Virus record (IMG/VR): IMGVR_UViG_3300015262_000285
Span: 1 to 32,591 of that record
Strand: one strand, 5' to 3'
Source of the DNA: a virus
DNA length: 32,591 nt
Under the pieces are notes generated by a model. The model searched no databases. It was not told where the DNA came from and worked only from the letters and a program-made list of their open reading frames with translations. Of this stretch, positions 5,601 through 32,478 are shown one piece after another. The translations under genes and the position numbers were made by a program. How positions within the stretch are numbered: position 1 is the first letter of the stretch; every line of letters starts with the position of its first letter.

Positions 5601-5629
5601 ACTATAGTATGTTAAAACATACTTGTCAA
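5601..5629 (-). promoter_or_regulatory. Early leftward promoter (TTGACA-17-TATAGT)
   Basis: Read leftward, TTGACA (5629-5624) is followed by exactly 17 bases and then TATAGT (5606-5601), so five of six -10 bases and all -35 bases match the sigma70 consensus. It points at the RHH gene and the whole early operon to A and the AlpA-like gene. The spacer is filled by the repressor operator, so bound repressor and RNA polymerase would exclude each other. Confidence 0.85.
5606..5623. promoter_or_regulatory. Perfect 18-bp operator of the C repressor
   Basis: Perfect inverted repeat with 8-bp arms, AGTATGTT and AACATACT, separated by AA. It starts at the first -10 base and ends next to the -35 hexamer of the early promoter, and lies 15 bp before the C repressor start. 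No second copy was found by eye elsewhere in the window. Assignment to C is by position and by the usual P2/HP1-type logic. Confidence 0.75.
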
Positions 5630-6091: not shown

Positions 6092-6365
6092 ATCGTGGAG
6101 GAATGGGCGCTTTTCGTTCCTAAAAAGTGCCAGAAAATGGAAGGTTGCCGCTCTCGCCCCATTGCTCTTTGCCTGCTGCTTGCCGCAATACAGATGTGAA
6201 ATGATGGCTACGGTTGCCAGCAGCTTCATTAGAAATTCTTGCTATTACGATGGGAAAGCCTACACGGTCGGTATCGTCATCGAGACGGCGCAAGGTATCA
6301 AGTGCGAGTGTGTCACCGCTGCTGCTGATGGTTTTCCGATATGGGTGAGTGGGAACTGGAGTTAA
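6060..6365 (+). CDS. DUF1496-like small exported protein, start unresolved
   Basis: The last 45 codons encode C-Y-Y-D-G-K-A-Y-T-V-G-I-V-I-E, then C-E-C and a terminal tryptophan-rich end, a pattern I associate with the small periplasmic DUF1496 family. Upstream in the same frame is a basic stretch and a hydrophobic core (A-A-L-A-P-L-L-F-A-C-C), as in a signal peptide. The only in-frame ATGs are inside the C gene (for example 6060) or after the signal-like segment (6201), and none has a good ribosome site. A GGAGG with an ATG at 6103 is out of frame and stops after six codons. The gene may therefore have lost its start or be a decayed moron. Confidence 0.4.
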   Translation: MLGAKKNHRRKSWRNGRFSFLKSARKWKVAALAPLLFACCLPQYRCEMMATVASSFIRNSCYYDGKAYTVGIVIETAQGIKCECVTAAADGFPIWVSGNWS

Positions 6366-6664
6366 CTACATTCGCTACGGCAGATAAAATCGCGAGGCAT
6401 ATATAATCTTCCGAGCGGGAGGCGTGCCGGATAGACTTATTGTCGCCACAACACCCACGCAGCGAAGCGACAGACAACGCGCTGCACAATAGCATGGTTT
6501 TTAGTCGGTGTAATGCCCCCGTCAGCGAGATTTAGAATAAAAATTTGAATTGAGGTAGATGCTTGGAGGCAGTTCCGGCAGCGCGCAAAAATGGAGAATT
6601 TCCGAAGCTGCCGCAAATATTTTGATATATACCATTGGGAACAATGATCCGCATTGGATGAATA
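6366..6664. other. Non-coding AT-rich region before the nuclease gene
   Basis: About 300 bp with no supported ORF. It holds a TATAAT at 6402-6407 without a recognisable -35, a long-loop inverted repeat at 6576-6613 (perfect 7-bp arms CGGCAGC and GCTGCCG), and a small dyad at 6633-6646 (CATTG, GGAA, CAATG) with a third CATTG at 6652. These sit just upstream of the Mrr-like gene and may be control elements or part of an untranslated RNA. None is proven. Confidence 0.4.
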
Positions 6665-7474
6665 ATGAGAAAAACATCTGCCTGGTATGAGTTCCAAGAA
6701 GAGATAAAAGAACACTTCATCTCTATCGGTGCTGATGCTAATACTAATGTGAGAGTTGATGGGGTGAGGACATCCCATGATATTGACGTGTTTGTTAAAA
6801 CCAAGTTCCTAGGTGAAGACATGGTTTGGCTGGTTGAAGCAAAGTACTGGAAGACCAAGGTGAGCAAAGCTTCTGTCCTCGCATTTAGATCTATCGTTGA
6901 GGATGTTGGAGCAGATCGAGGGTTTATGGTATCTAGCTCAGGTTTTCAGCGAGGCGCAGTAGAGGCTGCACAAAATACCTGTGTAAAGTTGAAAAGCCTC
7001 GGAGAGATGAAGATAGAGACAAAAGGAATGGTCGAGGGTGAGATCATAAAAACCTATTTGAAAAGGTTGACGCTTATTGAAGATCGATATTGGTCTCATT
7101 CAAAAAGCCTTCGGAGTAAATATGGCCTGCGCCATGAAGTTGGAGATTGGTCACTCGATTTCATTGGACAACAACTCCTAGCAGTTGCGCGCGCGGCATT
7201 AATCTCCGCCGAGCATAGAGAATACCCTATCGATCTAGAGACTCACCTCAATGAGCAAAAGGGAGAGTCCATCGCATACAGCTTTCAGCAGCTATGCAAT
7301 TGGTTGAACTTGAATCTAAATCATTTCGAGGAGAAGTTGCTTTTAGCGGAATGGGCAATGTATAAGAACGGGGAATATCGTCCAGATACAACCAAAACAC
7401 CGGATGGCGAAACGACAACTACGGCAATACTAGCCAAGGCAATGCGTAGTGGTCGCAAGAGCGAGATGGACTAG
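6665..7474 (+). CDS. Mrr-type restriction endonuclease-like protein (269 aa)
   Basis: A predicted PD-(D/E)XK nuclease. The core is in the first 105 residues: a helix (W-Y-E-F-Q-E-E-I), H-D-I-D-V-F-V with Asp39/Asp41, then W-L-V-E-A-K-Y-W with Glu58 and Lys60, then V-S-K-A-S-V-L-A-F-R-S-I-V-E-D-V-G-A-D-R-G-F-M-V-S, which matches the helix and strand after the E-x-K in Mrr-family proteins. The C-terminal 160 residues are not recognised. GGAT lies seven bases before ATG 6665. The gene is more AT-rich than the phage structural genes and is followed by an AAA ATPase gene on the same strand, 193 bp away. An anti-phage role is inference from location and family; the target is unknown. Confidence 0.72.
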   Translation: MRKTSAWYEFQEEIKEHFISIGADANTNVRVDGVRTSHDIDVFVKTKFLGEDMVWLVEAKYWKTKVSKASVLAFRSIVEDVGADRGFMVSSSGFQRGAVEAAQNTCVKLKSLGEMKIETKGMVEGEIIKTYLKRLTLIEDRYWSHSKSLRSKYGLRHEVGDWSLDFIGQQLLAVARAALISAEHREYPIDLETHLNEQKGESIAYSFQQLCNWLNLNLNHFEEKLLLAEWAMYKNGEYRPDTTKTPDGETTTTAILAKAMRSGRKSEMD

Positions 7475-7667
7475 TTCCCGTGGGATAACAATTCACTCTA
7501 GGCGTGGTAGCTTAAGCGTCAGGATTGTTGGGATTTCGATTTTTTGTTTTGTGAGAATGCCGCTTGGAAAAAGACTTGTCGATCGTTGCTTATTTTTCTA
7601 GGCTTTAATAATCTATTGGGTTGGTTGCACGTAACGCGTTTCTTTTGGTTGATTGGAAAAATTATAT

Positions 7668-9281
7668 ATGTCGTTTAGTTTTATTATTCCGAGTAAAGAT
7701 GGCGAGACCCTTATTTCTGTCGAGCCAGGAGCCTCAGTTGTTTTTGTTGGTGCTAATGGTAGCGGTAAAACCCGATTAGCAGTGAAACTTGAACAGACGA
7801 TTGGACTGAATACTCATCGTATCTCGGCGCACCGTGCATTAGCTTTAAATCCTGCTGTGGTTAAGATTAGTGAGGAACTTTCACTTGCGGGCCTGCGCAC
7901 CGGGCGTGCCAGCATGGACACTGGAGTCGAATATCGTCCATTGACGCGATGGAAACAAAAAGAGGCAGTCAATATATTAGATGACTTTGATTTTTTGATG
8001 CAGGCTCTTTTCGCCAATCAAACGAATATTACACAATTAACGCATTCCAAAGTACAAGCAGGAGAGCCTGGTCCTTTCGCGAAGACAAAATTTGAATATT
8101 TGCAACAAATCTGGGGTAGGTTATTGCCGGACCGTACTTTGCATATAACGGGTGACGACGTCAAAGTATCTATTCCTGGTTCGAATTTAAAGTATACTGC
8201 ATCGGAAATGAGTGACGGTGAGCGCGCAATATTTTATATGATTGGCCAGGTGCTTGTCGCCGCACCGGACTCATTGCTTATATTTGATGAGCCTGAACTA
8301 CATGTCCATCGATCCATTATGTCAAAATTATGGGATGAACTGGAAGCCGCACGTCAGGATTGTGCATTTGTCTTTATTACCCATGACCTAGAGTTTGCCG
8401 CCACGCGAGCTGCGAAAAAATATGTGGTGCGTGATTATGATGGGGCCTCGCGCTGGACCATCGACTTAGTTCCAGAGCAAACGGGCTTTACCGAAGAGCT
8501 GACCACACTCATCCTCGGCAATCGGCGTCCTGTACTTTTCGTTGAAAGTGAAGAAGAGAAATTCGATGTTGCTCTTTACCGTTGTTGCTTTCCAGATTGG
8601 ACAGTCGTTCCGCGTGGTTCGTGTTCAGATGTGATTCATTCTGTGGTTACTCTGCGCCGTAACGAGGTATTTACACGGATCAAGTGTCGTGGAATTGTTG
8701 ACGCAGACGGACACGATATTCTTGAGATTGAAAAAATGGCCGAGATGGGTGTCGATGTCTTAGCGGTATCAGAGATTGAGAATATCATTCTGTTGCCGAC
8801 TGTAAGCCGGGCTGTAGCAGAAATTGAAGGGTATTCAGCCCACGAAATAGAAGCTAAACTTGTGCAGTTAAAAGCGGCTATATTTGCTGACGTTAAGCTG
8901 CCAGGTGCGATAGATGCCGTCGTCATGCGGCACTGCCGCCGACGTATTGATCGGATTTCAAAGAGGATTGATTTAAGCAACGCTTCTACAGTTACGGAAC
9001 TTCGAGATGAGTATGCATGCCAAACAGCTGCAGTTGATATTGATTCGCTCGCATATGATGCGCGCGCGAAAATTGAACGTGCTGTAAGTATTGGTGACCT
9101 GGATACTCTGCTTGCTATTTTCGATAACAAAGGGTTGTTGGCACATGCAGCGAGGATTTTGAAGAATACTCGTAAGGATCAGTTTGAGGGCTGGCTCACA
9201 CGGATGCTTCGAAATGGAACCGCTCCTCTCTTGTCTGCCGCCATCTACGAGGTAATTCCAAGAATCGTTACCCCCGAGTAG
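7668..9281 (+). CDS. AAA/ABC-type ATPase fused to DUF4435/TOPRIM-like domain
   Basis: A 537-aa protein. The N-terminal ABC/SMC-like ATPase has Walker A G-A-N-G-S-G-K-T (28-35), signature-like S-D-G-E-R-A (182-187), Walker B L-L-I-F-D-E-P-E (203-210) and the H-loop T-H-D (around 239). The C-terminal part opens with P-V-L-F-V-E-S-E-E-E-K-F-D (Glu293), continues with G-I-V-D-A-D-G-H (Asp345, Asp347) and S-E-I-E-N-I-I, the layout of DUF4435, which resembles the TOPRIM nuclease fold of OLD/GajA proteins. ATG 7668 (GGA nine bases upstream) is preferred over TTG 7653. AT-rich relative to the phage. A dimeric ATP-regulated nuclease in phage defence is the likely role, by inference. Confidence 0.78.
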   Translation: MSFSFIIPSKDGETLISVEPGASVVFVGANGSGKTRLAVKLEQTIGLNTHRISAHRALALNPAVVKISEELSLAGLRTGRASMDTGVEYRPLTRWKQKEAVNILDDFDFLMQALFANQTNITQLTHSKVQAGEPGPFAKTKFEYLQQIWGRLLPDRTLHITGDDVKVSIPGSNLKYTASEMSDGERAIFYMIGQVLVAAPDSLLIFDEPELHVHRSIMSKLWDELEAARQDCAFVFITHDLEFAATRAAKKYVVRDYDGASRWTIDLVPEQTGFTEELTTLILGNRRPVLFVESEEEKFDVALYRCCFPDWTVVPRGSCSDVIHSVVTLRRNEVFTRIKCRGIVDADGHDILEIEKMAEMGVDVLAVSEIENIILLPTVSRAVAEIEGYSAHEIEAKLVQLKAAIFADVKLPGAIDAVVMRHCRRRIDRISKRIDLSNASTVTELRDEYACQTAAVDIDSLAYDARAKIERAVSIGDLDTLLAIFDNKGLLAHAARILKNTRKDQFEGWLTRMLRNGTAPLLSAAIYEVIPRIVTPE

Positions 9282-9327
9282 TCCTTGTTCTTTATTGCGT
9301 AAATAAGTAGCATGAATTTGTCGCTTG

Positions 9328-9352
9328 TAAGGAAAACCTTAGGCTATTTTTT
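9328..9352 (+). terminator. Probable intrinsic terminator after the ATPase gene
   Basis: Inverted repeat TAAGG-AAAA-CCTTA (9328-9341), a few bases later followed by six T (9347-9352) on the plus strand. It would end transcription from the ATPase gene just before it runs into the convergent gene D (stop at 9356). The stem is short and AT-rich, so efficiency is uncertain. Confidence 0.5.
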
Positions 9353-9355
9353 CGA

Positions 9356-10612
9356 TTATTGGTTGGCCATATCTGGCTTCCGGGACTCATCTTTGTTCTC
9401 TCGAATGATTTCCCGCACTTCCCCAATATGCCTCCATGCATGCAGCGCCGCCCGTTTTGCGGCCTGCTTGCTCTTGTAAGAATGCTCCAGCGTCTTGAGC
9501 GTGCCCGTGGCGCCGGCTTGCTCCTGCCCCGCCTTTTTCTTTTTCGCCGCCACGTCCTTCCACTTGGCCAGCACGCCCGTGATGCCTTCGTCCGGGTCTT
9601 TCTCGTTCTCGCGCTCGGCCTCGACCGCTTCCGTCTTCGTTTCAAACTCCACGCGGGTGGTAAAGCCGCTACCACCCAGGCTGTGCGTGACCTTGACCGA
9701 TAGCCATTCGGTGGCGTCGATCTCGGGCTTGAAGCCTGTCACGGTGACGGGTGATTGCGGGAACACGGCCGGGTTGCCCAGGGCCAGGCTCATTTCAAAG
9801 GTGGCCAGGCCGCGCAAGATGCGCTGCCATTCGGCCACGGCCGCCGCGCGCGCGTCGGTTTCGTTGGCGAAGGTGGTGCGCAGGCGCTTGCTGTTGCCCG
9901 GCACGCCCGCCACCACGCTGCGGCGGCGCGCGTAGCGCTCGTCGTGCCAGAAGGCGCGCACGCCCGTGTAGGCGTCGCTTTCGGCGCTGTGGTAGCGGTG
10001 GCCATCGCCCAGGGCGCGCGTGATGGGGATGACCGGCAGCGCCTTGCCGCTGGCGGTGCGGCTCTGGTTGATGGGGATGAAGAGCAAGGTGTCGTTCTTG
10101 ACGGTGGCCACCGCGTCGTATTTCCTGCCCAGCCGGCGCAGAAAGGCTGCATCGCTTTCGTGGGTCTGGTCGATGTGCTCGACGGCGGTATCGCGCAGGC
10201 GCGCCGACACGCCCGACGCCAGCTCGTTGCGAAAGGCGATGGCCTCGATGATGGCGCCCAGGGTGGTCTTGTGAAAGCTGTGTTCCTGCTGCTGCTTGAA
10301 GGTGTCGATCAGGTTGGCCGACCTGGCGCGCAGGGTGATGGTGTCGGGAGCGCCGCTGTGCTCCACCTCGTCGACCGTGAACTTTCCCATATCCACCAGA
10401 CCGGACGCTTGCCAGCCCAACGCCAGGGCGATCTGCGCGCCGCGCGGCGGCAGGGCCAGTTTGCCGTCGCTGTCGTCCAGGGAAATGTCGAGCTGGTCGC
10501 TCTCGTCGCCGCGACACAGGGTCAAGGTCATATTGATTAGCCGCGGTGAAACGATGGCCGTCAAATCCTTGTCCTCGATGCTGACCTTGAAGGCGGGGAT
10601 ATGCTCGCTCAT
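9356..10612 (-). CDS. D: Baseplate hub / late control protein D
   Basis: A 418-aa homologue of P2 gpD, the hub protein at the baseplate-tube junction that binds the spike. Family features are clear: P-A-F-K-V-S-I-E-D-K-D-L-T near the N terminus, the D-L-D-I-S-L-D-D-type strand, L-P-P-R-G-A-Q-I, and the long F-L-R-R-L-G-R-K-Y-D region. It is about 30 residues longer than P2 gpD. The extra C terminus is very charged (K-K-K-K repeats). The start overlaps the stop of U by four bases. It is the last gene of the FI-to-D late operon and converges on the accessory cluster. Confidence 0.92.
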   Translation of the reverse strand: MSEHIPAFKVSIEDKDLTAIVSPRLINMTLTLCRGDESDQLDISLDDSDGKLALPPRGAQIALALGWQASGLVDMGKFTVDEVEHSGAPDTITLRARSANLIDTFKQQQEHSFHKTTLGAIIEAIAFRNELASGVSARLRDTAVEHIDQTHESDAAFLRRLGRKYDAVATVKNDTLLFIPINQSRTASGKALPVIPITRALGDGHRYHSAESDAYTGVRAFWHDERYARRRSVVAGVPGNSKRLRTTFANETDARAAAVAEWQRILRGLATFEMSLALGNPAVFPQSPVTVTGFKPEIDATEWLSVKVTHSLGGSGFTTRVEFETKTEAVEAERENEKDPDEGITGVLAKWKDVAAKKKKAGQEQAGATGTLKTLEHSYKSKQAAKRAALHAWRHIGEVREIIRENKDESRKPDMANQ

Positions 10613-21435: not shown

Positions 21436-21855
21436 CTAGGCCGTGACGGCGTTCTGGCCTGGGGATCGAATCTTCCTCGTTATATGAGGAGGCCCATAGT
21501 TGCGCCCATCGTTCAGCAGGGGAACCCCTTGCTGCACTAACTCCTCTATCAATTCTCGTTCTATTAAGTCTGCTTGCGAAGTACAAACCTCAGAAACTAT
21601 AAACATTTTTGGCAGCCTATTTTGTTCCAATAGTTCAGCAATCCAGTCAGTCAGCCCATATCCGCGTTCTCCAGACAATATTTTCCGACCTTTACGTGCG
21701 AGTTTTTTTGACATAGACACATGCCAGACAAAGCGGGCTCCAGGTGAATTGCTTCGCCCAACGTATCGAATCACGTTGTCCTCTGCCATCATTACATAAA
21801 TGACCTCTTTTCCGTTTGCACATGGGGGTGTGACCTCTAGCATTGTATTTTTCAT
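21436..21855 (-). CDS. GIY-YIG nuclease-domain moron protein (139 aa)
   Basis: A 139-aa protein with a GIY-YIG-like core: V-I-Y-V-M-M (18-23), I-R-Y-V-G-R-S (29-35), P-G-A-R-F-V-W-H-V with Arg41 and His45, a later acidic helix (A-D-L-I-E-R-E-L-I) and the terminal L-L-N-D (Asn115). This order fits the family. It lacks a visible DNA-recognition module of homing enzymes. It is AT-rich compared with its neighbours V and S, has its own promoter (21891-21919), and interrupts the usual S-to-V junction. It therefore looks like a moron expressed in the lysogen. Alternatives: homing endonuclease, superinfection exclusion, DNA repair nuclease. Confidence 0.72.
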   Translation of the reverse strand: MKNTMLEVTPPCANGKEVIYVMMAEDNVIRYVGRSNSPGARFVWHVSMSKKLARKGRKILSGERGYGLTDWIAELLEQNRLPKMFIVSEVCTSQADLIERELIEELVQQGVPLLNDGRNYGPPHITRKIRSPGQNAVTA

Positions 21856-31490: not shown

Positions 31491-31829
31491 ATGATTGTAA
31501 AAATGTTAAAGATGCGCCTTGCTGGCGTGGAGGTGCCCAAGCGACGGCTGCATGATCGCTACAACTCAGCACAGTCCGGCAAGTTGGAAGTCGTTGAAAC
31601 GACGGACCAGGGTCTGCACCGTCTGGTAAAGCTGGCCCGCTTCACTCATGAAGGGAGCGGAAACCACGTTGAGACACTTTTCGATGTGAATTTGCTCTGG
31701 TATCGGGATGGGCGCATGGTGTTGTCAGGGTTTGAGCGCAGCAAAAAAGATATGCAATTTTGCGACTATGCGCAGTCCTGGCTGTGTTTTGTCGGGACGG
31801 AACCGCCGCCAATGCCGGAAGGCAGGTAG
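31491..31829 (+). CDS. SOS-controlled protein of unknown function (112 aa)
   Basis: Not recognised. A 112-aa soluble protein with a basic N-terminal part (K-M-R-L-A-G-V-E-V-P-K-R-R-L) and a beta-rich second half (V-E-T-L-F-D-V-N-L-L-W-Y-R-D-G-R-M-V-L-S-G-F-E-R). ATG 31491 follows the SOS promoter, with AGGT seven bases upstream; the longer frame to 31383 would run through the promoter. The first gene after a LexA box, between cos and the expected att site, is the place of the tum antirepressor in phage 186. It could instead be a partner of SRAP. No sequence similarity to Tum was seen. Confidence 0.65.
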   Translation: MIVKMLKMRLAGVEVPKRRLHDRYNSAQSGKLEVVETTDQGLHRLVKLARFTHEGSGNHVETLFDVNLLWYRDGRMVLSGFERSKKDMQFCDYAQSWLCFVGTEPPPMPEGR

Positions 31830-31839
31830 AATAAATTGC

Positions 31840-32478
31840 ATGTGCGCCGACTATACCCCCAGCCGTAGCGATCAAATCGAACAGCATTTCGCTGTCCGCT
31901 CCCCCCAGTTTGACCTGCCGCCGGAAGCCTGGCCGGGATACATGGCGCCGATCATTCGCGCCTCGCACGAGGTGCCCGGTGAGCTGGAAGTCGCGCCGGC
32001 ATGTTTCGGGATGGTGCCACATTGGGCCGATATGAAGCTGGCGCGCCAGACCTATAACGCCCGCACCGAAACGGTGGCGCAGAAGCCATCCTTCCGCAAT
32101 GCCTGGAAGCGCAAACAGTTCTGCATTATTCCGGCGGATAATTTCTTTGAGCCTTGTTACGAGACTGGAAAGCCGGTGCGCTGGCGCATCGAGCGCGCCG
32201 ATGGGATGCCGGCCGCCATCGCCGGGATCTGGGAATTCCGGCCGCAAGATTTGCTGCTGTCGTTCTCGATGCTGACGATAAATGCCGATGGCCACCCGCT
32301 CATGCAGCGTTTTCACAAGCCGGATGATGAAAAACGGATGGTGATGATCCTCGACCCGGACCAGTATCACGGCTGGCTCGATGGTTCCCTTGTGGCCGAA
32401 GAGGATTTGTTCCAGCAGTATCCTGCAGAACGCCTGCTGGCTGTAGCGGATCCACTTCCGCCGCGTGTGAAAAAATGA
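31840..32478 (+). CDS. SRAP (HMCES/YedK-like) abasic-site protein
   Basis: A 212-aa SOS response-associated peptidase. ATG 31840 gives the invariant M-C start, with Cys2 as the residue that crosslinks to abasic sites in single-stranded DNA. Other family marks: Y-N-A-R-T-E-T-V (catalytic Glu region), C-I-I-P-A-D-N-F-F-E, and a histidine in R-F-H-K-P-D-D-E-K-R-M-V, a variant of the usual H-x-R-M-P. The upstream in-frame ATG (31708) lies in the preceding gene and would bury Cys2. It is second in the LexA-controlled operon and overlaps the next ORF by four bases. It could be phage cargo or host flank. Confidence 0.9.
   Translation: MCADYTPSRSDQIEQHFAVRSPQFDLPPEAWPGYMAPIIRASHEVPGELEVAPACFGMVPHWADMKLARQTYNARTETVAQKPSFRNAWKRKQFCIIPADNFFEPCYETGKPVRWRIERADGMPAAIAGIWEFRPQDLLLSFSMLTINADGHPLMQRFHKPDDEKRMVMILDPDQYHGWLDGSLVAEEDLFQQYPAERLLAVADPLPPRVKK

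Follow-up and report, generated by a model that had tools for sequence, protein, structure and literature searches.

Does the AT-rich block that lies between the repressor and tail gene D of this P2-like virus encode one two-gene anti-phage system, or two independent cargo genes? The window, i.e., the whole stretch of DNA that was analysed, is IMG/VR record IMGVR_UViG_3300015262_000285 (positions 1-32,591; 32,591 nt). It carries a P2-like gene set that includes an integrase, replication protein, repressor, tail gene D, fibres, baseplate and terminase. We identified two co-oriented open reading frames on the plus strand within 6366-9355, one of 269 amino acids (6665-7474) and one of 537 amino acids (7668-9281), separated by 193 bp. 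Their GC contents are 0.45 and 0.46, respectively, versus 0.62 in the rest of the window. Open reading frames, base composition, and Pfam and PHROG assignments agree with the preliminary description, which had placed two co-oriented genes, 193 bp apart, in an AT-rich block between these borders. RNA families and tRNAs were not found, and the best end-to-end att repeat is an unconvincing 11-bp match. A second spot of low GC content (about 0.54) occurs at 21436-21855 (minus strand), where a 139-amino acid ORF without a PHROG match adjoins the tail completion genes. Near the right end of the window, at 31708-32478 (plus strand), a 256-amino acid ORF matches PHROG 1599, a family of unknown function.

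The left border of the block is the phage repressor (5636-6091, plus strand; Pfam HTH_3, PHROG transcriptional regulator), a helix-turn-helix protein encoded in the same direction as the cargo. A small conserved ORF of 54 amino acids (6201-6365, plus strand) forms the left edge and resembles DUF1496 (Pfam score 18.7 versus a cut-off of 20.2). The right border is tail gene D (baseplate hub; 9356-10612, minus strand; Pfam Phage_GPD, PHROG 52), which is convergent with the cargo. We used tail gene D as bait and fetched 75 viral contigs, of which the 57 with both borders were used (slot relatives are among loci L030-L091, read between gpD and the repressor). The gpD of these relatives is 66-97% identical to that of the window, and at least 90% identical in all but one. 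Nucleotide similarity between the window and its relatives ends sharply at 6364-6385, right after the DUF1496-like ORF, and at 9372-9396. Both flanks match and nothing matches between them. Thus, we delineate an exchangeable cargo cassette at 6366-9374, from the DUF1496-like ORF to the 3' end of tail gene D, close to the limits proposed earlier (6366-9355).

The interval from repressor to gene D is short and highly variable in the 57 relatives (0.7-5.4 kb, median 2.8 kb, mean GC content 0.46). It contains 157 cargo ORFs of at least 90 amino acids that fall into 121 clusters, and 135 of the 157 are encoded in the direction of the repressor. Twenty cargo proteins were scanned singly, and 13 reach E <= 1e-8 with a PADLOC model, although one of these matches is weak. 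The matched families are type IIG restriction, PifA, HEC-04, bSEFIR, a CBASS cyclase and a PD-T4-6-like kinase domain (one protein each), as well as Septu PtuA (three), DzbA (two) and PDC-M01 (two, the second of which is the weak match). With conserved borders, variable content and recognized defence families, the slot between the repressor and gene D is a P2-type defence hotspot, as had been suggested from the window itself. It resembles the hotspots that Rousset et al. (2022) described in P2-like phages and P4 satellites, which are likewise short variable slots with diverse defence systems, PARIS included. However, the published P2-related hotspot of Vibrionaceae lies between cI and the integrase rather than between the repressor and tail gene D, and we found no description of this particular slot in open-licence papers. 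Because the variable slot is filled with defence families, its location supports a defence role for the genes within it.

The second gene of the cassette (ariAB, 7668-9281, plus strand) encodes 537 amino acids if translated from the ATG, or 542 from a TTG at 7653. An AriA-like ABC ATPase (residues about 1-270) is fused to an AriB-like DUF4435/TOPRIM domain (residues about 280-537). The PADLOC model for AriAB (PDLC02982) matches nearly the full length of the protein (452 bits, E = 5.5e-136; residues 3-533 of 537, profile positions 27-567 of 570), and the second-best PADLOC model reaches 58 bits. Searched separately, the two halves match AriA (N-terminal half, E = 4e-17) and AriB (C-terminal half, E = 1.4e-4), and each strongly matches its own part of the AriAB fusion model. 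Pfam identifies AAA_21 (52.4 bits, cut-off 27), and DUF4435 is borderline relative to its cut-off of 27 bits, as the whole protein scores 25.2 and the C-terminal half by itself 27.7.

The ATPase motifs (7749-8291) are a Walker A sequence (GANGSGKT, 7749-7772), a signature motif (SDGE, 8211-8222) and Walker B (LLIFDE, 8274-8291), all on the plus strand. In an alignment of 26 homologues, G28, N30, G31, G33, K34, S182, G184, E185, D207 and E208 are invariant, D183 is nearly so, and His239 is also invariant. The acidic residues of the TOPRIM domain (8544-8780, plus strand), which are Glu293 (8544-8546), Asp345 and Asp347 (8700-8708), and Glu371 (8778-8780), are likewise invariant in the 26 sequences. 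Thus, the complete Walker motifs and the TOPRIM-like residues Glu293, Asp345 and Asp347 noted earlier are kept in these homologues. In the predicted structure (pLDDT 87, pTM 0.54), 227-228 residues of the ATPase fold align with two solved chains of AriA, 8v46_B and 8ux9_B, at Z 14.6. As AriA chains (14.3-14.6) score level with retron and Septu PtuA chains (14.4-15.0), the fold alone cannot settle the family. A search of the PDB with a profile of the TOPRIM half returned chance matches only and no AriB chain.

The preliminary description knew of no named system with this pair of genes. The ATPase-DUF4435 gene by itself corresponds to AriAB, the single-gene PARIS (PADLOC; PMC9122126). PARIS is detected by an AAA_15/AAA_21 ATPase with DUF4435. 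It is present in 5.2% of prokaryotic genomes, either as two genes or fused into one, and P2/P4 hotspots are among its documented locations (PMC9122126). The gene agrees with the fusion form in its profile match over the full length, in the order of its domains, in the ATPase motifs and the acidic residues of TOPRIM, and in being carried by phages and plasmids. Judged from its sequence by family, domain order and conserved active residues, the ATPase gene is the single-gene AriAB form of PARIS. Among named phages, the only homologue is in Oenococcus phage phi9805 (24%). AriAB also occurs alone on a 5.8-kb Psychrobacter plasmid, on an Agrobacterium plasmid, and between the packaging genes of another phage.

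The first gene (6665-7474, plus strand; 269 amino acids) encodes a PD-(D/E)XK nuclease domain (residues about 6-110) followed by a helical C-terminal domain (Pfam Mrr_cat and an AF2 model). The earlier assignment as an Mrr-like nuclease is borne out by the Mrr_cat match (47 bits, cut-off 21) and by the catalytic residues Asp41 (6785-6787), Glu58 (6836-6838) and Lys60 (6842-6844), which are invariant in alignments of 11 and 13 sequences. The AF2 model (pLDDT 86) has a core that matches PD-(D/E)XK enzymes, with AF1548 as the best structural match (Z 15.4 over 113 residues). A structure search with the whole model gave no named match for the C-terminal helical part. Like Mrr-type (type IV-like) restriction endonucleases, the protein combines an Mrr_cat domain and PD-(D/E)XK residues in a solitary gene without a methylase. 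Matches to the PADLOC mREase_IV models are weak (E = 0.0016 and 0.006). E. coli Mrr has an N-terminal DNA-binding domain and a C-terminal catalytic domain. Here, in contrast, the catalytic domain begins at residue about 6, precedes the helical domain, and has no separate N-terminal recognition domain (no match there by Pfam or in the model). From its family, this solitary nuclease is most likely a restriction-type enzyme that cuts incoming DNA.

Close homologues of the nuclease were not found among named phages. Its relatives are lone genes on plasmids, integrative elements, phage-like plasmids and viral contigs, and a few lie beside a QueC-like (7-cyano-7-deazaguanine synthase) gene (L165 2224-4720, L166 2224-4723 and L003 7989-9668). 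In two Rhizobiaceae plasmids the order is PfkB-QueC-Mrr with 4-bp overlaps, and in Pseudomonas indica it is Mrr, the QueC-like gene and then HNH. The QueC-like/Mrr arrangement is possibly a separate defence operon. Another relative, on a Vibrio plasmid (L009 5968-6750), is surrounded by small genes in a common orientation, several of them with DUF3265 ORFs; the setting resembles an array of integron cassettes next to phage-like genes.

Are the two genes parts of one system? Adjacency, shared orientation and similarly low GC content speak for such a system, with the Mrr nuclease as effector or partner of the ATPase-TOPRIM protein, and other conflict operons combine an OLD-family ABC ATPase with a PD-(D/E)XK nuclease (PMC12839542). 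Against this, profile scans of the fetched DNA, in which only matches strong enough for real relatives were counted, found the nuclease in 0 of 39 other AriAB loci and AriAB in 0 of 24 other nuclease loci. Rare pairs may have escaped detection where flanks were short, but a tight module would have been expected to appear. Moreover, genes of tight modules usually overlap or nearly so, whereas here the gap is 193 bp. A sample of 348 genomes from one family contained four genomes with each gene and none with both, too few to be informative. The candidate two-gene module was rejected, as the pair was not found together at any other locus in the fetched DNA, and we consider it very unlikely that the genes form one two-component system. 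Because no other fetched locus holds both, and each occurs as lone cargo without the other, we treat them as independent genes; this is the alternative of two independent morons that had been offered alongside the module. The pair is two separate known kinds of defence gene and not a new two-gene system. Another reading is also improbable, in which the cassette would be a two-layer unit whose Mrr enzyme restricts phage DNA and whose fused PARIS detects restriction blockers and kills the cell by a release-free activation.

A different question is whether the ATPase-TOPRIM protein might be a class 1 OLD-like DNA nuclease, similar to P2 Old, rather than a PARIS tRNase. Its domains are ordered as in OLD, Foldseek places the structure of OLD from T. 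scotoductus (6p74) among its top matches, and one review raises the possibility that fused AriAB forms a distinct class of OLD (PMC10568477). However, the AriAB model matches at E = 5.5e-136, compared to 4.6e-5 for the only GajA model listed, there is no Old model among the best 25 PADLOC matches, and the C-terminal half matches DUF4435 and AriB. An OLD-like DNA nuclease is thus an unlikely reading of this gene. Gabija GajA likewise fuses an ABC ATPase to TOPRIM, but is encoded next to the UvrD/Rep-like helicase GajB, and neither of the two ORFs of note in the cassette encodes a helicase. Membership in OLD/Gabija was rejected, given the far better AriAB profile match and the lack of a GajB-like helicase. 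It is also conceivable that the two genes are passenger DNA without a current defence role. The content of the slot turns over completely between relatives. Yet both ORFs are intact, their catalytic residues are kept across distant homologues, and the slot holds many recognized defence families; we regard passenger DNA as very unlikely.

The explanation that we favour, with a probability of about 0.83, is that the block is a P2-like phage hotspot cassette with two putative independent anti-phage genes, a single-gene PARIS and a restriction-type nuclease. These genes probably protect the host from other phages. Of the original interpretation, the anti-phage families and the P2-type hotspot are retained, and the two-gene module and the unnamed status of the ATPase gene are not. 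Both genes are read in the direction of the repressor, as would be expected for expression in the lysogen. The Mrr-like nuclease would cut incoming DNA as a restriction-type enzyme.

The fused PARIS is probably an abortive tRNase. In PARIS of E. coli, a hexamer of AriA keeps AriB inactive until Ocr or similar triggers release it; the released AriB, a TOPRIM nuclease of the two-metal type, dimerizes and cleaves tRNA-Lys along with a few other tRNAs (PMC11455837; PMC12409363). By analogy with the two-gene form, the ATPase half would sense an anti-restriction protein or DNA mimic of the infecting phage and unleash the TOPRIM half, which would cut host tRNA, stop translation and abort the infection. 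Characterized PARIS has two genes and releases AriB, whereas the effector of the fused protein is joined covalently to the ATPase and has a divergent sequence. With sensor and effector in one chain, AriB-style release cannot occur as it does in E. coli PARIS. We propose that activation would instead involve rearrangement or pairing of the tethered TOPRIM domains. The AriAB of the window is remote from characterized E. coli PARIS, with low similarity to E. coli AriB, so its trigger and RNA target could differ. What was an unnamed "ATPase-DUF4435" becomes a phage-borne PARIS that is open to direct test, and it raises the mechanistic question of how PARIS works when the nuclease is tethered and release is impossible.

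Scans for transcription signals gave counts close to those expected by chance. A terminator had been described after the second gene. The scan yields three terminator-like sites versus 4.6 in shuffled sequence, and the fold after the ariAB stop codon has z = -0.4, which does not support that terminator. A candidate terminator between the nuclease and ariAB genes was rejected, being no better than shuffles. Six promoter-like sites were found versus 5.9 expected, and the best (11/12), on the minus strand at 5629, points away from the cargo.

The wider contents of the slot may be of more interest than the nuclease and ariAB pair. The slot mixes named defence systems with unnamed neighbours, and is therefore a compact source of candidate new systems. 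Several large cargo ORFs lack a PADLOC match at E <= 1e-8, for example those of 826 amino acids (L035), 819 (L080), 597 (L075) and 519 (L068). In two relatives, the slot itself contains incomplete duplicates of the gene D 3' end (L051 12345-12574 and 14260-14352; L040 4818-5037), and some cargo ORFs of 181 amino acids overlap or adjoin such copies. The partial copies are possibly scars of cassettes stacked by recombination at the 3' end of gene D.
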